This document shows, piece after piece, positions 116 through 40,820 of a stretch of 40,820 nucleotides of DNA. This DNA is from a virus. Within the stretch, counting starts at the first letter, position 1, and the number at the start of each line of letters is the position of its first letter. The notes under the pieces are model-generated. The model searched no databases. It saw only the letters and a list, made by a program, of their open reading frames with translations, and was not told where the DNA came from. The position numbers and the translations under genes are program-made. The stretch lies in IMG/VR virus record IMGVR_UViG_3300033388_005345, positions 1-40,820 of that record. One strand, given 5' to 3'.

Positions 116-310
116 ATGATTGACATTGATGAGAGGAGAAGCCGAGCGCTATTTCAGCATTATGAAGCTAATAGTTTAGCTCAATATTTTTATGGTTGTT
201 CTAAAGAAGAGATTTCTTTTGAAAAACGTATTTTTCAAAGCCTTATTAACATAAACGATAGTTTATTAATTTTAACGGAAGAAGTGAAAAAAATTAAATT
301 AGCGGAGTGA
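116..310 (+). CDS. Small hypothetical protein, 64 aa
   Basis: This small charged protein has a predicted helical C-terminal half (ending KKIKLAE) and no family I recognise. The start is set by the GGAG of a repeated AGCGGAGTGATA cassette just upstream of the ATG. It is the last protein gene of the accessory island that begins near 38.9 kb across the circle junction. Its last codons (tta gcg gag tga) lie inside the 5' end of the tRNA-like gene at 301, so protein and RNA gene overlap by 10 bases. Function unknown. Confidence 0.65.
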   Translation: MIDIDERRSRALFQHYEANSLAQYFYGCSKEEISFEKRIFQSLININDSLLILTEEVKKIKLAE

Positions 311-373
311 TAGCAATGGTAGCTGATGACATTTAGAGTGTTGATGTTGGTGGTTCGACTCCACCCTCCGCTT
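301..373 (+). tRNA. tRNA-like gene, anticodon loop TTTAGAG (anticodon TAG)
   Basis: A full cloverleaf can be drawn by eye. The acceptor stem AGCGGAG 301-307 pairs with CTCCGCT 366-372. The D arm is TAGC/GCTG with loop AATGGTA. The anticodon arm is TGACA/TGTTG with loop TTTAGAG (332-338). A 5-base variable region follows. The T arm GGTGG/CCACC has loop TTCGACT. Anticodon TAG would read CUA (Leu), yet bacterial tRNA-Leu normally has a long variable arm and A73, while this has a short one and T73. The acceptor-to-D-arm linker is 3 bases instead of 2. CCA is not exactly encoded (CCG follows). It could be an atypical or decayed phage tRNA. Confidence 0.62.
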
Positions 374-515
374 CCGAGCGGGTTTACTGGTAAACAGCCT
401 AAAAACCAGAGGCCAGTTTACTCGTTCTGGCATATTAACTAAAAATGAGGGTTCACAGCCTCTCTGCGCTTGAGGTCCTATAAGAGCTTGAGCTGGTGTG
501 GAGAGGCATTATTAT
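374..515 (+). other. Non-coding spacer with hairpins between the two tRNA genes
   Basis: I see no convincing open frame. The stretch holds several inverted repeats: GTTTAC/GTAAAC (382-395), CCAGA/TCTGG (406-430) and a perfect 7-bp pair GCCTCTC (458-464) with GAGAGGC (501-507). It may be part of a polycistronic tRNA precursor or the 5' half of a larger phage RNA that continues to 946. I could not fold it into a third tRNA. Confidence 0.4.
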
Positions 516-590
516 GTCTCCATCATCTAGTGGTTAGGATAACACCCTTTCACGGTGGCAACATGGGTTCGATTTCCATTGGAGACGCCA
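516..590 (+). tRNA. tRNA-Glu (anticodon TTC)
   Basis: The acceptor stem GTCTCCA (516-522) pairs perfectly with TGGAGAC (580-586), followed by G and an encoded CCA (588-590). The anticodon loop CTTTCAC (547-553) carries TTC at 549-551. The T arm ATGGG/TCCAT has loop TTCGATT. The sequence closely resembles bacterial tRNA-Glu throughout the D and anticodon arms. The outermost anticodon-stem pair is an A-G mismatch. Probable role: boosting GAA decoding during infection. I see no integrase, so it is unlikely to be an attachment site. Confidence 0.93.
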
Positions 591-680
591 TCTGTTACAA
601 TCTATCGGCTTCTTATTATCCGAACGTTCACCAGAAAGTCTTCCGAGTTGAAGGCTGAGTATGGTTAGCTTAGAGAAGAA

Positions 681-752
681 TAGCGGTATGCCGTCCTTCT
701 TAATTAGGATATAAGATGAGTACCTCCTGGGCATACACGGGAGCTATTTTTT
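681..752 (+). terminator. Hairpin plus T-run, terminator-like
   Basis: TAGC (681-684) pairs with GCTA (743-746) and GTATGCC (686-692) pairs with GGCATAC (730-736); six T residues follow at 747-752. A second small hairpin, GTCTTC/GAAGGC, lies at 638-655. The long loop is unusual for an intrinsic terminator, so it may also be a processing element closing the tRNA transcript. Confidence 0.45.
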
Positions 753-946
753 AAGATACATAAATCCTTGTGGCGTTCCAGGAGATAGGACCTTCCATCG
801 GTTGATCCATTGACCTCTTGGGTGAGAACGCTGCGGGTAGTGTCTTAAAAGACGGGTAAGGCCTAGTTACGTGCCCGCAGTTAGAGCCGCCATATGGATG
901 GCTCGATGATCTGTAGGAACTTGGCGTAACAGGTATCGTCTTTTAA
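753..946 (+). ncRNA. Candidate phage structured non-coding RNA
   Basis: No plausible gene lies here, yet the stretch is dense in long complementary segments. GATAC (755-759) pairs with GTATC (933-937). GTTCC (775-779) pairs with GGAAC (916-920). CTGCGGG (831-837) pairs with CCCGCAG (874-880). GTAA (856-859) pairs with TTAC (867-870). GAGCC (884-888) pairs with GGCTC (900-904). TTAAAAGACG (845-854) is a perfect 10-bp complement of 937-946 and competes with the local hairpin GTCT/AGAC (842-853), as in a pseudoknot or switch. TGGCGTTCCAGG (771-782) is nearly repeated at 922-933. The place, next to phage tRNAs, matches that of large ornate phage RNAs such as GOLLD and ROOL; I cannot match either family by sequence. 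Strand is inferred from neighbours. Confidence 0.6.
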
Positions 947-987
947 AAACAGTAGACATTGTACATCTGAATGTATACTAAATTCAC

Positions 988-1029: not shown

Positions 1030-1058
1030 TTGACACTTCTTGTAAATAATCCTAAACT
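1030..1058 (+). promoter_or_regulatory. Promoter of the scaffold-coat operon
   Basis: TTGACA (1030-1035), a 17-base spacer and TAAACT (1053-1058) form a good sigma70-type promoter in front of the morphogenesis genes. The leader holds a small hairpin GTAAG-TTTTA-CTTAC (1085-1099) followed by AGAGAGG. It also has TTGACT (1134-1139) complementary to AGTCAA (1178-1183), just before the AGGAGG of the scaffold gene, which could mask that ribosome site. Confidence 0.6.
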
Positions 1059-1199
1059 ATATCAATCAGGTTACTCTCGCCTATGTAAGTTTTACTTACA
1101 AGAGAGGTATACGTGACCAAACGGTAAATGGTTGTTGACTCGCAACATGCAACGAGGCATCACCGTGACGGGGTAATAGTCAATAGGAGGCTAATTTGT

Positions 1200-1928
1200 A
1201 TGGCTGACGATAATCAAGATTTGAATGTAGAGGCAACACCTAATGAAGGTGCCGAGCAAAAAGATGCAGCTCAAGAAACGGCAGGGCAAGAAGAAAAAGT
1301 ACTGAAGCAATCTGAAGTTAACAAGATTGTAGGAGGAGCCAAGCTGGAAGCTTATGAGAAAGGAAAACGTGAAGCTATAGCCGACATAGAGCAGCGAAGA
1401 GCCGAAGCGCAAGCTACTCAGCAACCAGTACAGCAACCCCAATCTGAACAACTTACTATGACTCGTGATGAGTTAAGGAAGATGATTGAAGAAGAGGCTA
1501 CTACTCGAACCCAACAGCAACAAGCTCAGCGAGTTGTTGATCAATTTGTAGGCAAGATGAAATTAGGTATGCAGAAGCATGACGATTTTGAAGAAACGGT
1601 GACAAAGTTGGATATTCCAAACTTACCACCGCAAATTATCGATTGGGCAAATTCAATGGATAACACTGCGGACATTATGTACGAAGTGGCTAAAAATCCA
1701 GGAAAGTTTGCCAATTTGTTGACGTTAAGTGTTACTAGCCCCCGTTTAGCTTATGATGAGTTTGTCAATTTGTCAGATTCTATTAAGAAGAACGAGGAAG
1801 CTAAAGAGAAGAACTCAGGTCAACAGAACACGCCATTAGATCAAGTTAAGCACTCCACAACAGGCATAGATAATGGTGCTCCCTCGTCTGTTAGCGACTA
1901 TCGCAAGCAGCCGTGGAACAGAGGATAG
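1200..1928 (+). CDS. Scaffolding protein, P22 gp8-like
   Basis: Predicted internal scaffold that guides coat assembly and leaves before or during DNA packaging. The 242-aa protein is highly charged and helical. It has an acidic N-terminus, a long E/K/Q-rich middle (about residues 20-130) and a charged C-terminal region ending RKQPWNRG, which would contact coat. It lies directly before a P22-type coat gene, where gp8 sits in P22 (303 aa there). The ATG at 1200 is chosen because AGGAGG lies 9 bases upstream; a frame extension back to 1128 has no ribosome site. The call rests on composition and position, not a specific motif. Confidence 0.75.
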   Translation: MADDNQDLNVEATPNEGAEQKDAAQETAGQEEKVLKQSEVNKIVGGAKLEAYEKGKREAIADIEQRRAEAQATQQPVQQPQSEQLTMTRDELRKMIEEEATTRTQQQQAQRVVDQFVGKMKLGMQKHDDFEETVTKLDIPNLPPQIIDWANSMDNTADIMYEVAKNPGKFANLLTLSVTSPRLAYDEFVNLSDSIKKNEEAKEKNSGQQNTPLDQVKHSTTGIDNGAPSSVSDYRKQPWNRG

Positions 1929-1981: not shown

Positions 1982-3220
1982 ATGGCTTTACCTACTAACG
2001 TGTTGGAAACGGTTACCACGTACCAACGCTCAAACCTCGCTTACCTTTTAAATCACAATTGTTTTATAAGTGAAGCAAACAAGAAATTTACTAATTTTAA
2101 TAAACTAGAAGCAAACTTAGGCGCAAGCGTGTCCTTTGATTTACCACCTCGCTTTGCAACAAATGACAGCTTGATTGTAACCTTTCAGGGTTCAGAGCAA
2201 AGAAAGCAGACCTTAACAGTTGATAAGGCAAAGAACGTTGCAGTTGATTTCAGTGCTGAGCAGTTCATATTTAATGTTGAACAGTATATGGATCAATTCG
2301 GTATGTCAGCAATGAAGCAACTAGGTACAACTGTAGAATCTGACATTGCTCAGAATGCTATTAGCGGTACTTATCGTTTCTATGGTGACGGTACCACAGC
2401 AATTAACTCTTTTGGACAATTAGCATCTGCTGTTGCAATGTTAGAAGAGTTTGGCGCTGCTACTGGCCGACATAAAGGATTCATCAACAATCTAGCAATT
2501 CCTGGAATAGTTTCTAGTGGATTAGCAAAGTTTGTTCCTGGAAGAAACAACGAAATTGCTAACTCATGGGAATTAGGTTCATGGGCTGATGCAGATTGGT
2601 ATCGTTCAAACTTATTAGCAACTCATACTGCAGGTACAGTTGGTAATGCTGTTACAACTTTGGTTATAACCGCTGTTACAACTGCTGCTGATGGTGGTAT
2701 AACTGCTATTACATGTTCTGGCGGTGGTACAGATGCTGACGCTATCAAACAGTATGACTTATTACAGTTTGATGATGGTGTCTCAGGTCAGCCTGATGTT
2801 CGTTACAGAACATTTATTGGTCATCAACCTTCGGGTGCCCCTGTTCAAATTCAGGCTACTGCTGATGCAGCTTCTGCAACTGATAGTGTTGTTATTCCAA
2901 TTTTACCTAAGCTTTATAGTGCTGCTGGTAACAAACAGAATGTTACTCAGACAATTGCTGTAGGCATGGAGCTAACTACATTACCAAGTCATAGAGCTGG
3001 TATGTTGTACTCAGGAAACGCATTCTTCTTGGCAATGCCACAATTACCAGAAGAAATTCCGTTCCCAACAGCCAACAAAACTGATGCTGATACTGGTTGT
3101 GCTATTCGTATGTACTATGGTTCTCTATTCGGACAAAACGAAAGAGGATTGGTGCACGATACTATTTGGGGATCTACATTAGTTCCTGAATATTCAATGC
3201 GTATAGTATTTCCTCTATAA
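1982..3220 (+). CDS. Major capsid (coat) protein, P22 gp5-like
   Basis: Forms the icosahedral shell. At 412 aa it is close to P22 coat (430 aa). It has the family's typical N-terminus (MALPTNVLETVTTYQRSNLAYLL), the conserved KNVAVDFSAEQ region near residue 85 and a variable, Ala/Thr-rich insertion around residues 215-330, where P22-type coats carry an added I-domain. GGAGAAAGAAG precedes the ATG. It follows the scaffold by 53 bases and is followed by gp4- and gp10-like genes, the P22 order. Confidence 0.92.
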   Translation: MALPTNVLETVTTYQRSNLAYLLNHNCFISEANKKFTNFNKLEANLGASVSFDLPPRFATNDSLIVTFQGSEQRKQTLTVDKAKNVAVDFSAEQFIFNVEQYMDQFGMSAMKQLGTTVESDIAQNAISGTYRFYGDGTTAINSFGQLASAVAMLEEFGAATGRHKGFINNLAIPGIVSSGLAKFVPGRNNEIANSWELGSWADADWYRSNLLATHTAGTVGNAVTTLVITAVTTAADGGITAITCSGGGTDADAIKQYDLLQFDDGVSGQPDVRYRTFIGHQPSGAPVQIQATADAASATDSVVIPILPKLYSAAGNKQNVTQTIAVGMELTTLPSHRAGMLYSGNAFFLAMPQLPEEIPFPTANKTDADTGCAIRMYYGSLFGQNERGLVHDTIWGSTLVPEYSMRIVFPL

Positions 3221-3238
3221 CTAGACGAGGGTGAAGTC

Positions 3239-3943
3239 ATGTCTTTAACTGCAAGAGCATTAATTATAAGAGCTTACGAAATAGCTGGTATAGTTTCGAG
3301 AGACTTCCAGTCCACAACAGGTGGCCAGATCACCGATGGACTGGGAATGCTTAATGATGTTCTAGCAGAGAAGGGCATGACTGGTGCCTTGATCCCTTAT
3401 TATAGAGAATATACTTTCAATGCTGTTGTAGCACAGGAGAAGTATGAAGTTGATTTGCTCATGGAAATAGAGAGCCTAACTTTCAATATTGGACCTCTCA
3501 GGTATCCTATGCAGCAGATTAGCAGGAGGAAATATTATGGTTCTGCAAGACCAGATAATATTCAAAGCCTACCTTATCACTATCATATGGAAAGAAGGCT
3601 TAACGGAGCTGATGTCTACCTTTATTTCTTGCCTGATCAAGCTTATCCAATGAGATTGTGGGGTAAGTTTCAGTTAGATGAGATTGTTAGTCTTTCTGCT
3701 GATTTATTACTTATCTATGATAGGTTTTTCTTAAAGTATCTTACATATGCAGTAGCTGCAGATATATGTGATTCTTATGAGCGTACAATGCCTACACAGG
3801 CTGCTCATTCAATGCAGATACTAGAAGAAAAGCTTACTTACATTAGTCCAATTGATCTTACTACACAGAAATACTCATCTTTTCAAAGAGATGCTGTTAT
3901 TAACTATGGTGATGCTAACCTTGGCAAGGGGTGGCGTCCATGA
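3239..3943 (+). CDS. Head completion / tail accessory factor, P22 gp4-like
   Basis: The 234-aa protein opens MSLTARALIIRAYEIAGIVS and continues with the DGLGMLNDVLAEKG pattern typical of the P22 gp4 family, which binds the portal ring after packaging and forms the platform for the next stopper protein. It is longer than P22 gp4 (166 aa), mostly at the C-terminus. It follows coat by 18 bases with GAGGGTGAAG before the ATG and overlaps the next gene by an ATGA junction, suggesting coupled translation. Confidence 0.85.
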   Translation: MSLTARALIIRAYEIAGIVSRDFQSTTGGQITDGLGMLNDVLAEKGMTGALIPYYREYTFNAVVAQEKYEVDLLMEIESLTFNIGPLRYPMQQISRRKYYGSARPDNIQSLPYHYHMERRLNGADVYLYFLPDQAYPMRLWGKFQLDEIVSLSADLLLIYDRFFLKYLTYAVAADICDSYERTMPTQAAHSMQILEEKLTYISPIDLTTQKYSSFQRDAVINYGDANLGKGWRP

Positions 3944-34734: not shown

Positions 34735-35187
34735 ATGCAAGAACCGCTGTTTAAGCTTATAAGACAGCCTAAAGATTCAGAGGACAGAATATATAGGACG
34801 TTGTTTGTTGGTAAAAATATTGAATTAGAGCATAAAGATTATCCATCGCATACAATAACTATTGATTATTATAAACTTTTTATGACGATCGGAGGCTATA
34901 CTAGGTTTTTAACAATTTACCCTACTCCACCTCCCAAGCATGGTTCGGATTCTCCTGGGATCGCTACATTCCATGTCGATTATTCCGGTCAATTAAACAT
35001 AGCTTTGTTGGATTCGTTTTGTGTAATCAGAGGATCTCACGATTATCTTAAGCATATAGAATCTAGGTTAGAGAATGAGCATGACTTAGATCCCCTCAAA
35101 AAGGTACCATCTGAAAATATATTTTTTCTACAATGCAGCGAATGGCATAGGTTACAGAGCAGGGTAGTGCAGTGCATGACGAGCTGA
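34735..35187 (+). CDS. Hypothetical protein between terminase genes, 150 aa
   Basis: ATG 34735 with AAAGGTG upstream (a GTG at 34726 is the alternative). Beta-rich (HKDYPSHTITIDYYKLFMTI), with Tyr/Pro segments and a helical end. Not an HNH or other nuclease by eye. Overlaps terL by 16 bases. An insertion between TerS and TerL is not part of the P22 plan. Confidence 0.6.
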   Translation: MQEPLFKLIRQPKDSEDRIYRTLFVGKNIELEHKDYPSHTITIDYYKLFMTIGGYTRFLTIYPTPPPKHGSDSPGIATFHVDYSGQLNIALLDSFCVIRGSHDYLKHIESRLENEHDLDPLKKVPSENIFFLQCSEWHRLQSRVVQCMTS

Positions 35188-36713
35188 CCACTGATGATCC
35201 GAGTGTTAGATTAGCACACTCGTTATTGCTGTTTACGAGATATTTCTTTCAAGAACGTACAGGAAGAGCATTTGATCTCAGTTATCCTATAGCTAGAGAA
35301 TCCCATTACATCACTATCTGTAGAGCACTAATGGATGTGTTTGAAGGTAAAACTAAGCGATTGATTATCAATGTAGCACCGCGGAGTGGTAAGACAGAAT
35401 TACTAATTCATTTTATAGCTTGGGCTTTAGCACGCTATCCTGATTGCAATTTTCTGTACACATCATATTCACATAATTTGGCTGCGCGACAAACTGCTAT
35501 AGTTCGTAACATCCTGCTGCTTAATGAATACAAACAATTGTTTCCCGTATCTTTGGCGAAAGGATCTCAAGCTAAGTTTGACTTTGAGACAGATAGTGGT
35601 GGTTCTGTATATGCTGCTGGGATTGGCGGGTCAATACTAGGCCGAGGAGCTGGGATAAAAGGTTCAGCTAGGTTCGGTGGATGTATCATCATAGATGATG
35701 CTCATAAGCCGGTCGAAGTTCATAGTGACGTTGTCAGAGAGGGTGTTATAGAGTGGTATAAGAACACGTTACAAAGCCGTAGAAACAATGGTAGGAATAC
35801 TCCGACAATCATGATTGCTCAACGACTCCATGAACACGACTTATGTGCATATTTGATGGAAGAAGATTCAGAAAGCTGGGAGATTCTTAAGTTAAATTCT
35901 TTAGGTCCCTGTGGTCATGCGTTATATCCAGAAATATATCCGTTAGACATGCTATTGGATTTACAGGAACATGATCCGTATTTCTTTGCAGCTCAGCATC
36001 AACAAGATCCTCAGCCGGCTGGTGGCGGGGTGTTCAAGCGTGATTGGTTCTTACAGTTAGAAGATGAACCGAAGATGTTGCTTACATTCATTACAGCTGA
36101 TACAGCAGAGACAGATAAAGATTACAACGATGCTACAGTGTGTAGTTTTTGGGGTGTGTATAAGATTATGCAGGGGGAGTATGAAACTGATATGTATGCT
36201 ATTCATTGGATAGATTGTACAGAAGAGTGGGTGGAACCGACAGATCTGCAGGAACATTTTATGCAGTTCTATTATCGATGTATGCATCATAAAGTAAGAC
36301 CATCATTTGCAGCTATTGAAAAGAAGTCTACAGGTGTGACATTACTTTCTACTTTGCAAAAAATTCAAGGTTTGAAAATAGTCAGTATAGAGCGTACAAG
36401 AGCATCAGGATCAAAGACAACGAGGTTTCTAGAAATGCAGAAATTTATTGCTAAGAAACAACTTACATTGCCGGAAGGTAAAAAGCATACTAAGCTATGT
36501 ATTGATCATATGGCAAAGATTACAGCTAATGATACGCATAGGAGAGATGATATTTGTGATACAGCTTATGACGCGATTAAGCTTACTTTAATTGATGACG
36601 TCGTTATTAATACTTACATCAATCCAGAGACAGAAGAGAACAAAGCAGCGGTTGACGGGATTTTACAGCAACATGATAAGTTGCAACAATTGAGGAGGGC
36701 CAGAACATGGTAG
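35172..36713 (+). CDS. Terminase large subunit
   Basis: 513 aa packaging motor with ATPase and nuclease. Walker A VAPRSGKTE (residues 68-76); Walker B CIIIDD (171-176) followed by AHKP; QRLHEHDL motif near 217. The nuclease domain begins around ITADTAETD (D310) and has an acidic DICDTAYDA near the end. Typical of the P22-type headful terminases. It starts at GTG within the end of the upstream gene and ends overlapping the portal ATG by 7 bases. Confidence 0.93.
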   Translation: MHDELTTDDPSVRLAHSLLLFTRYFFQERTGRAFDLSYPIARESHYITICRALMDVFEGKTKRLIINVAPRSGKTELLIHFIAWALARYPDCNFLYTSYSHNLAARQTAIVRNILLLNEYKQLFPVSLAKGSQAKFDFETDSGGSVYAAGIGGSILGRGAGIKGSARFGGCIIIDDAHKPVEVHSDVVREGVIEWYKNTLQSRRNNGRNTPTIMIAQRLHEHDLCAYLMEEDSESWEILKLNSLGPCGHALYPEIYPLDMLLDLQEHDPYFFAAQHQQDPQPAGGGVFKRDWFLQLEDEPKMLLTFITADTAETDKDYNDATVCSFWGVYKIMQGEYETDMYAIHWIDCTEEWVEPTDLQEHFMQFYYRCMHHKVRPSFAAIEKKSTGVTLLSTLQKIQGLKIVSIERTRASGSKTTRFLEMQKFIAKKQLTLPEGKKHTKLCIDHMAKITANDTHRRDDICDTAYDAIKLTLIDDVVINTYINPETEENKAAVDGILQQHDKLQQLRRARTW

Positions 36714-38773
36714 AACTAGCACAGAAACATCTAGATCAGCTAGATAGGCTGAAAGAGAACGTAGAGAAATCACATGATTACTTCAAAAGAAACAATAGGA
36801 GATGGCATGAATTTAAGGAATTCTTGTATGTGACATCTTTAACTGATGCTGATTTAGAAGTACTACGTACATTAAACAAGCCTGAACTAGAGTTCAATAT
36901 ACTAGAAGCATATGTATCACGTCAGAAAGGTGAGTTTGCTAAGCAAGAGCCTTCAATTAAGATACAAGCAGGATCTGGAGAACAGGTAGATCCTAAAGTG
37001 ATAGAAGCTATAGAAGGACATATTAGAAGTGTAGAAAAACAAACACGTGATGATAACGTAGCATATGATGTTTATGATGACATGCTAGCTGGTGGTTATT
37101 CAGTTGTTAAGGTATGGGCTGATTACGTGAATGAGATGAGCTTTGATATAGATCTGAATGTATCTCGTGCATTTGATCCTACTCTTTGTGGGTTTGATCC
37201 ATTAGCCATGAAGTCACATAAAGGAGATGGTGAATATTGTTTTGAGCTACATGTTTTACGTGAGAAAGAGTTCAAGGAAACATATCCAAATGTAGATGTA
37301 GGAGACCTAACTTTTACAGCAGAATTAGAAGGGTTTAGCTGGTCGTATAAGACTAGTAAAGAAAAGATTGTGATGTTAGCTGACTACTATGAGAAGAAGA
37401 TAAAGAAAGTAAAGATAGTTAAGCTTTCGGATGGCAGAGTTATGACTACAGATGAGTATGAGAAGTTTTTGGTTGAATGGGAAATGTCAGGCAAGATACA
37501 GCAACCAGCACAACCAGTTGGTGAGCCTAGAGCTACTACTCAAACTAAAGTAGTTAGGTATCGTTTTATTGAGAACAAGGTTATTGGGTACAAAGAAACG
37601 CCCTACAGATACTTACCTTTGGTTTTCTTTGATGGTGATTCTGTGGTTGTTAGACGTAGCGAAACTGGTCCTTTGGAGCAGGTGACAAGACCCTATTGTT
37701 ATCAAGCTCAAGGTGTACAAAGACTTAAGAACTTCTGTGGTCAGACGCTAGCTAACGAAATTGAGAACATGATTCAGCATAAGTTCAAGCTGCCTAAGGA
37801 AGGCATTCCAGCTGAATATGCTAGTGCTTATACTAACTACCAAATACCAAGTGTGTTAGTCTATAATCAGTTCAAAGACAACAATCCAGATGTTAGATTA
37901 GATCCTCCTCAAGAGATAGCACGCATACCAACACCACCTGAGATTGGTACCACGTTTATGGGGGCAGATCAAACAACACAGGCAATTCTAGGCTCCTACG
38001 ATGCTGCTTTAGGAATCAACAACAACGAGCTTAGTGGTATTGCTATTACAGAAGCAGCAACACAATCGAATGCAGCTGCGATGCCTTATATCGTAGGTTA
38101 TTTAGATGGTTTAAACCAGGTGGCCCAGATCATATTGGATCTAATACCTAAGTATTATACAACCCCGCGATCAATACCAGTTCTCGACAAGGATGGGAAC
38201 AGGCAGTATATGCTCGTGAATGATACTGGACAGCCATCTATGCAATATGACGCTAATGCATTAAACGTAGAAGTAAATGCAGGTGTTAACTTTGCAATCC
38301 AACGATCTAGGGCGTTGCAACAAATTACAGCTTTAATGCAGGCATCTGAGATGTTTGCTAACTTCATAAACAACACTCCACAAGGCTTAAATGCATTGTT
38401 AGACAATATTGAGATGCGTGGTATAGATAAGCTTAAAGAATCTGTAGATCAGTTCTTACAGCAACAAGCGCAGCAAGCAAAACAACAACAACAGCAAGCT
38501 ATGATGCAGAACCCAGCTGTTATTCGTGCTCAGGTAGATATGAAGAAGATGCAGCAAGAGTCTCAAGAAGCAGAGCGCAGAGATCAGATTAGTGTAGGTA
38601 ATCTAGCTGTATCTGATAAACAGGCTGATACTGATAGTGGTGTTAAAGAGAACGCATCAGATTTGCAAGCAGCTAAGTTACAGGCAGAAAATGCTAGAAC
38701 AGCGGTAGACATGGCTATCAAGACAGCAGATATGGAGCATAGACATAAAAAAGAAACTGATGCTCCACAATAA
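36707..38773 (+). CDS. Portal protein, P22 gp1-like
   Basis: 688 aa (P22: 725). Recognisable features: the N-terminal NRRWHEFKEFLYVTSLTDAD region, VYDDMLAGGYSVVKVWADYV near 130, PYRYLPLVFFDGDSVVVRRS near 300 and the long helical, Gln-rich C-terminus (FLQQQAQQAKQQQQQAMMQN) corresponding to the P22 barrel. Forms the dodecameric DNA entry ring. GAGGAGGGCCAGAAC precedes the ATG. Confidence 0.92.
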   Translation: MVELAQKHLDQLDRLKENVEKSHDYFKRNNRRWHEFKEFLYVTSLTDADLEVLRTLNKPELEFNILEAYVSRQKGEFAKQEPSIKIQAGSGEQVDPKVIEAIEGHIRSVEKQTRDDNVAYDVYDDMLAGGYSVVKVWADYVNEMSFDIDLNVSRAFDPTLCGFDPLAMKSHKGDGEYCFELHVLREKEFKETYPNVDVGDLTFTAELEGFSWSYKTSKEKIVMLADYYEKKIKKVKIVKLSDGRVMTTDEYEKFLVEWEMSGKIQQPAQPVGEPRATTQTKVVRYRFIENKVIGYKETPYRYLPLVFFDGDSVVVRRSETGPLEQVTRPYCYQAQGVQRLKNFCGQTLANEIENMIQHKFKLPKEGIPAEYASAYTNYQIPSVLVYNQFKDNNPDVRLDPPQEIARIPTPPEIGTTFMGADQTTQAILGSYDAALGINNNELSGIAITEAATQSNAAAMPYIVGYLDGLNQVAQIILDLIPKYYTTPRSIPVLDKDGNRQYMLVNDTGQPSMQYDANALNVEVNAGVNFAIQRSRALQQITALMQASEMFANFINNTPQGLNALLDNIEMRGIDKLKESVDQFLQQQAQQAKQQQQQAMMQNPAVIRAQVDMKKMQQESQEAERRDQISVGNLAVSDKQADTDSGVKENASDLQAAKLQAENARTAVDMAIKTADMEHRHKKETDAPQ

Positions 38774-39953: not shown

Positions 39954-40197
39954 TAAAACAATTCAAGAACTAGCAGACATAAACGAATCATTTAACAGAA
40001 TCATCAAGCTTAAGTCTGTTCTAGACGAGCTAATGAATCGCAGGAATATTTGGGAGCGATCTAAGACTAATTGTTTAGCAGAATGTAGAGAAGCGATGGA
40101 AAAGCTGGAAGGTGCGCCAGATGATGAGCAAGATATAGCAGGCGAGATTGAGCTGATGTTCTATAGAAAGATCTTTCAAGTTCTGAGAGATGATTAG
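39943..40197 (+). CDS. Hypothetical helical protein, 84 aa
   Basis: GAGGAGAAAGCAAATGACA start at 39943. Charged helices (KTIQELADINESFNRIIKLK, LAECREAMEKLEGAPDDEQD). The TAG stop sits at the beginning of an AGCGGAGTGAT cassette that supplies the ribosome site of the next gene. Confidence 0.6.
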   Translation: MTVDKTIQELADINESFNRIIKLKSVLDELMNRRNIWERSKTNCLAECREAMEKLEGAPDDEQDIAGEIELMFYRKIFQVLRDD

Positions 40198-40208
40198 CGG
40201 AGTGATTG

Positions 40209-40547
40209 ATGAATATTATGTTCCATGAAATATTAAACCCTATTAAATGTGGGCAAGCTAAATATGAATTGGCAGCTATTCCAGTGAGTCAACCAGAGAT
40301 TGTAGTGACTATTAATGGGTTGATTTTAAACGATGGTCTTGCCATAAATATGTATGGGTGTTTTATAACTAAAAAAAAGCTACCGTTGCTTAGTCATAAA
40401 TTAGATAAAAATGTGTTAATCATAGCTGAAAATATAGCAAGCAAAATACAATTAGAAGACGACATCCAATGTTGGTATGATATCGAGATTCCATTATTGA
40501 ATAAAGATGCTGATGTTACAGTATATACGGGTTCTTTACATGATTAG
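40209..40547 (+). CDS. Hypothetical protein, 112 aa
   Basis: ATG 40209 after TAGCGGAGTGATTG. Beta-rich (YELAAIPVSQPEIVVTINGL, DIQCWYDIEIPLLNKDADVT). No family recognised. Stop TAG begins the next AGCGGAGTGAT cassette. Confidence 0.6.
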   Translation: MNIMFHEILNPIKCGQAKYELAAIPVSQPEIVVTINGLILNDGLAINMYGCFITKKKLPLLSHKLDKNVLIIAENIASKIQLEDDIQCWYDIEIPLLNKDADVTVYTGSLHD

Positions 40548-40558
40548 CGGAGTGATAG

Positions 40559-40810
40559 ATGAAACAAGGTTATTTTACAGACGATGACTTAGATGCAGAT
40601 ATGATTGTAGCAGCTCGTGTTTATGCTGTTTTTTTGTGGGTTATAACGATAGCACTTGTTTTTCTTGGAATTGTTGCATTTACGCATTCAATTGTTTGTT
40701 TTAGGATCTCCCACTTACTTCAAGGTGCATTATCCATTATGATTGGGTTTATTTGTTTTTCAACAAGTGCGGTGACAGCTGTTTTTGGGAAGATGCTTTT
40801 TTTCGAATAG
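40559..40810 (+). CDS. Small two-helix membrane protein, 83 aa
   Basis: ATG 40559 after TAGCGGAGTGATAG. Acidic N-terminus (YFTDDDLDADMIVAARVYAV) then two membrane helices (VFLWVITIALVFLGIVAF; LLQGALSIMIGFICFSTSAV). Complete here; its 3' part is repeated at 3-104 by the terminal overlap. Function unknown. Confidence 0.65.
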   Translation: MKQGYFTDDDLDADMIVAARVYAVFLWVITIALVFLGIVAFTHSIVCFRISHLLQGALSIMIGFICFSTSAVTAVFGKMLFFE

Positions 40811-40820
40811 CGGAGTGATA
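40707..40820. repeat. Direct terminal repeat, right copy
   Basis: Identical to 1-114. Joining the copies makes gene 40559-40810 run straight into the gene at 116 with the standard TAGCGGAGTGATA spacer, supporting circular topology of the assembled unit. Confidence 0.93.

Follow-up and report, generated by a model that had tools for sequence, protein, structure and literature searches.

A folded non-coding RNA candidate beside tRNA genes and a leader with tandem pseudoknots before the scaffolding gene in a P22-type phage

Which RNAs, if any, are encoded in the long gap between the portal and scaffolding genes of a P22-type phage? The window considered here is the whole of record IMGVR_UViG_3300033388_005345, an apparently complete phage genome (40,820 bases) with an exact 114-base repeat at both ends, so that its last genes adjoin its first genes. 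An earlier note made from the sequence had pointed to a highly folded non-coding RNA at 753-946, possibly extending over 374-946 and akin to the phage RNAs GOLLD and ROOL. The present analysis leaves 753-946 an unproven RNA candidate, private to one phage among the collections searched, and adds a leader at 1112-1182, downstream of it and outside the coordinates of that note, which is retained as a string of pseudoknots in about 70 related phages.

Gene order, tRNA genes and base composition

The window has the P22 head-gene order, in which terminase, portal and small genes are followed by a gap and then by the scaffolding and coat genes (PHROGs; Table 1). A relative of the coat is contained in a genome of Legionella maceachernii. 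With 889 nt, the gap (311-1199) is the longest intergenic stretch of the genome, the runner-up measuring 311 nt. The tRNA neighbours that had been claimed for 753-946 were confirmed, and in several relatives, too, tRNA genes precede the scaffolding gene by no more than about 2 kb. The same slot is occupied in one relative (L027) by three tRNA genes (Thr, Ile with an AAU anticodon, and Asn) at 2765-3603. Two more blocks of conserved sequence (about 100-200 nt) were observed in the portal-scaffolding gap of subsets of the relatives, one in L005, L010, L014, L015 and L017 and the other in L016, L018, L021, L023 and L032.

The repeat AGCGGAGTGATA occurs at junctions of the small genes (103-114, 301-312, 40196-40207, 40546-40557 and 40809-40820; chance expectation, 0.11), the copies at 40809 and 103 being identical by way of the terminal repeat. 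It is probably a ribosome-binding linker, and one copy forms the first 12 bases, the 5' end, of the tRNA gene at 301.

Table 1. Positions of genes, RNA elements and complementary segments in the 40,820-base window.
Feature	Position	Strand	Basis or remark
Large terminase gene	35172-36713		PHROGs
Portal gene	36707-38773		PHROGs
Small genes, no assigned kind	from portal to 310		
tRNA gene with UAG anticodon (called Leu); variable arm short	301-375	+	ARAGORN; Rfam tRNA, 36 bits; AGCGGAGTGATA repeat
GC-rich non-coding island	311-946	+	46.5% GC vs 37.6% for the genome; within the longest intergenic gap
tRNA-Glu (UUC)	516-590	+	ARAGORN; Rfam, 52 bits
Intrinsic-terminator-like hairpin, then T run	718-752	+	-11.7 kcal/mol
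Folded non-coding RNA candidate	753-946	+	two-hairpin minimum-energy fold; no homologue found
GATAC / GTATC	755-759 / 933-937		complementary pair
GTTCC / GGAAC	775-779 / 916-920		complementary pair
CTGCGGG / CCCGCAG	831-837 / 874-880		complementary pair
TTAAAAGACG / CGTCTTTTAA	845-854 / 937-946		10-bp perfect pair
GAGCC / GGCTC	884-888 / 900-904		complementary pair
Inverted repeat GTAGACATT-N9-AATGTATAC, operator-like	952-978	no strand	
Sigma-70-like promoter TTGACA-17-TAAACT, before scaffolding gene	1030-1058	+	relatives show an excess of such sites before the leader
Leader pseudoknot A, CGU g [ACCA] a ACG guaaa [UGGU]	1112-1132	+	covariation
Leader pseudoknot B, UGUUG a [CUCG] CAACA ugcaa [CGAG]	1133-1156	+	more variable and less certain than A and C
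Leader pseudoknot C, stem 1 ACC/GGU, stem 2 UGAC/GUCA	1162-1182	+	stem 2 paired in 98.5% of cells (alignment of 72 places)
Shine-Dalgarno site AGGAGG	1185-1190	+	sequence
Head scaffolding protein gene	1200-1928	+	PHROG 8865, E 3e-5; ATG at 1200
Coat gene	1982-3220		PHROGs

The base composition of 311-946, a feature that had been missed in the earlier note, is matched by only 1 of 2010 windows of the same size, and that one (start 301) overlaps it. Intergenic DNA elsewhere has 35.3% GC, and directly past 946 the value drops to 30%. As had been judged before, no gene fits the stretch: no convincing open frame crosses it, and a protein-coding reading was rejected for this absence. A retron or similar element was likewise set aside, there being no reverse transcriptase among the proteins scanned (part of the genes). 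The suggestion of a single RNA covering 374-946 is doubtful because a terminator-like hairpin, lying inside it, ends at about 752.

The folded sequence at 753-946

Every complementary segment named in the earlier note was located at the position given there, and no perfect helix within 753-946 is longer than the 10-bp pair. Such a length is reached by 1.5% of dinucleotide shuffles of 753-946 (P 0.015), compared with 10% over 374-960; helices of at least 7 bp are present in ordinary number (P 0.17). Several of the named pairs are mutually exclusive and together they make no single structure: C831 is claimed by both GCGTTC/GAACGC and CTGCGGG/CCCGCAG, base 937 by both GATAC/GTATC and the 10-bp pair, and GTTCC/GGAAC clashes with GCGTTC/GAACGC. 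Pairing probabilities are near 0 for GTTCC/GGAAC and GATAC/GTATC (maximum 0.12) and 0-0.06 for CTGCGGG/CCCGCAG. The minimum-energy fold consists of two long hairpins, at about 754-846 and 847-945, and the multibranch form of the earlier note was not obtained. That note had read the 10-bp pair as a pseudoknot or switch competing with a local hairpin, which the energy model disfavours, the pair forming instead the base of the second hairpin; its probability is 0.85 when 753-946 is folded alone and 0.07-0.26 with flanks.

The fold energy of 753-946 is -67.1 kcal/mol (z = -2.5; 2 of 200 shuffles equally low), and the 200-nt window 761-960 has a z of about -3.3 (30 shuffles). Larger deviations from the trend of energy with GC are found at several other places of the genome. 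The GC island, the longest gap, the tRNA genes, the lack of a frame and the low fold energy together make a real non-coding RNA at 753-946 plausible.

Homologues of the candidate were sought at several levels. Searches of 374-1030 by blastn against phages and plasmids returned the tRNA-Glu or chance matches only; direct comparison of the locus in 31 and then about 110 coat relatives yielded no homologue, whole records of relatives gave nothing above chance, and none appeared in 143 Legionellales genomes, a search run without a positive control. Degenerate scans of IMG/VR with three frames of 591-965 and one of 377-520 produced no confirmed match, two exact 16-mers matched by chance only, and a covariance model built from the single sequence detected no homologue. 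Short exact or degenerate pattern scans of IMG/VR detect close relatives only, and many diverged RNA relatives would escape them. The nearest coat relatives (68% identity) carry a different sequence in the slot of 311-946.

Since no relative was found in these collections, 753-946 may be mere acquired sequence. On this account 311-946 would have no function as RNA apart from its tRNAs: GC-richer DNA would have come in with the tRNA genes, and the hairpins would reflect chance and composition. The ordinary helix count, the variable content of the slot between phages and zero conservation in relatives with a 68% identical coat agree with it; however, the energy lies below that of nearly all composition-matched shuffles, and one would expect so compact a genome to shed 600 useless bases. 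We consider this explanation a serious possibility, if clearly short of an even chance.

GOLLD and ROOL are frequent at tRNA islands, and the linker of GOLLD can hold tRNAs (PMC12286853). The candidate resembles them in being non-coding, phage-borne, several hundred nucleotides long and placed beside or around tRNA genes. In contrast to both, it has no covariance-model match, no homologues found, a weak fold signal and an internal terminator-like hairpin. The Rfam search that had been proposed as a check left the GOLLD and ROOL models unmatched at E up to 5, only the tRNAs reaching gathering scores, and membership of 753-946 in either class was rejected on this result. The candidate, or the whole of 374-946, might instead be a large ornate phage RNA of a new class that works like GOLLD or ROOL, self-assembling and encoded beside tRNAs. 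Such a class would fit the GC island, the embedded tRNA, the length of about 570 nt, the absence of a frame, the stable fold and a tRNA-island setting of the kind common for GOLLD and ROOL (PMC12286853), but with no match in Rfam at E up to 5, no homologue in the collections searched, a terminator-like hairpin inside (718-752) and a fold z of only -2.5 we regard it as unlikely. The segment could be made as a discrete RNA, and it will be important only if expression data reveal one.

Pseudoknots in the leader of the scaffolding gene

When the gap was compared across about 100 related P22-type phages, a shared block emerged immediately before the scaffolding gene. In the window, the leader 1112-1182 is composed of three predicted H-type pseudoknots in tandem and ends 2 nt upstream of the Shine-Dalgarno site. 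No string of this kind was found within 753-946.

A first alignment of 30 leaders (MAFFT, structure not used) made the interleaved stems visible. Over 18 named pairs, 80.7% of its cells are paired and 56 double changes occur; covariation is 0.345 vs 0.178 ± 0.015 in shuffled alignments (0 of 500 shuffles reach the observed value), and when partners are slid by 1-3 columns it does not exceed 0.105. A model based on sequence only recovered 72 places, over half of them in loci outside the model building, and their alignment gave a covariation of 0.340 vs 0.149 ± 0.010 shuffled, with slid controls at most 0.098. In the latter alignment stem 2 of pseudoknot A is paired in 93.9% of cells (for C, see Table 1). 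One pair in stem 2 of pseudoknot C is G-C in 28 sequences and C-G in 28.

Relatedness is not fully removed by the shuffled and slid controls and is removed by a test on the coat-protein tree. In independent phage pairs taken from this tree and pooled, the 5' and 3' sides change the same way about 52 times and in opposite ways 7 times (slid control, 24 vs 15); stem 2 of pseudoknot C contributes few events, 6 of them the same and 0 opposite. Pseudoknot B is partly supported, with 47-72% of cells paired in the larger alignment and without support from the tree. By these sequence comparisons the predicted pseudoknots are demonstrated through covariation, best for A and C, and the identification of the leader as a new structured RNA is well supported.

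The density of pseudoknots per leader is 1.45, compared with 0.25 after shuffling. Among 22 relatives searched whole, the leader model had one match per record in 16 and none at that threshold in 6. Upstream of the leader in relatives, promoter-like sites scoring at least 11 occur in 11% vs 0.6% of shuffles. Rfam returned no match for the leader of the window at E up to 5, nor for the leaders of 18 relatives at gathering scores, and no publication on pseudoknots arranged in tandem in the leaders of phage genes was found. The leader was not found in the cultured phages P22, Vibrio 1.211.A, FGH, 234P7a and Thalassomonas BA3.

Variation around the leader was also observed. Many relatives apparently have a fourth pseudoknot upstream, where the window can form a nested hairpin, and additional partial copies precede the main copy in L022 (2430-2471) and L072 (1000-1045), as if the string grew by duplication. 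Cultured Vibrio and Thalassomonas relatives (L142, L143 and L144) share a short leader of another kind, in which GGCTTAAATTCG, with one more T in L142, follows a hairpin. An inverted repeat, GTAgACATT-N9-AATGTATAC, lies upstream of the scaffolding gene both in the window and in L002 (about 1980-2006, there GTATACATT-N9-AATGTATAC); its copy at 952-978 is possibly an operator.

Proposed role and comparison with known operators

The leader is likely to exert translational control over scaffolding, and the position of pseudoknot C, next to the Shine-Dalgarno site, suggests control of initiation. The contents of the gap can be joined in one explanation, to which we give slightly less than an even chance, that of a private RNA cargo at 311-946 and a separately transcribed pseudoknot leader acting as operator of the scaffolding gene. 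The cargo would comprise the two tRNAs together with non-coding sequence that is folded and rich in GC, all transcribed by read-through from the upstream small-gene operon, and its transcript would probably end at the 718-752 hairpin or near 946. Its last part, in the form of two long hairpins, may be a stable RNA that shares the general habit of GOLLD and ROOL, yet is neither of the two. From about 1065, a separate transcript would carry the leader, whose pseudoknots would set scaffolding output; in the simplest form, free scaffolding protein would bind the string and block initiation, and scaffold production would be paced by consumption in heads. That the three pseudoknots represent a new family of regulatory RNAs in phages, coupling scaffold synthesis to head assembly in P22-type phages with free scaffolding protein as ligand, is proposed more tentatively, at well under an even chance.

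The tandem pseudoknots could alternatively be a 5' stabiliser of the mRNA, or an enhancer of translation, for an abundant scaffold and coat message. In favour of this role, the leader lies near the presumed 5' end of the transcript, promoter-like sites often being 7-12 or about 50 nt upstream, and the genes downstream of it need high expression; however, the last pseudoknot occupies the classical place of translational control, next to the Shine-Dalgarno site, and we judge a stabiliser or enhancer somewhat unlikely.

An operator in the leader would explain a control of the kind ascribed to P22, whose scaffolding protein is said, from the work of King in 1978 and of Casjens and Wyckoff in 1985, to be autoregulated post-transcriptionally. 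Gene function and gene order are the same in both phages. Unlike the window phage, P22 has a portal-scaffolding gap of 13 nt, no leader and no match to the model, so the protein-binding step is an analogy, one of need and not of descent.

The pseudoknot in the leader of T4 gene 32 is bound by gp32 (PMC3014915). The operator proposed here would resemble the autogenous translational operator of gene 32 in T4, T2 and RB69, which likewise has an H-type pseudoknot leader and serves a phage gene product needed in stoichiometric amounts; as in that kind of operator, the pseudoknots precede the initiation site of the gene that they would control. It differs from the gene 32 operators in having three tandem pseudoknots that adjoin the Shine-Dalgarno site of a head scaffolding gene, where binding by protein would be assumed by analogy. 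A second, much wider case could be supplied by the covarying pseudoknot string that about 70 phages, the Legionella maceachernii locus included, have before their scaffolding gene. It makes a long-standing question, how the supply of scaffold keeps in step with the assembly of heads, accessible to simple reporters.
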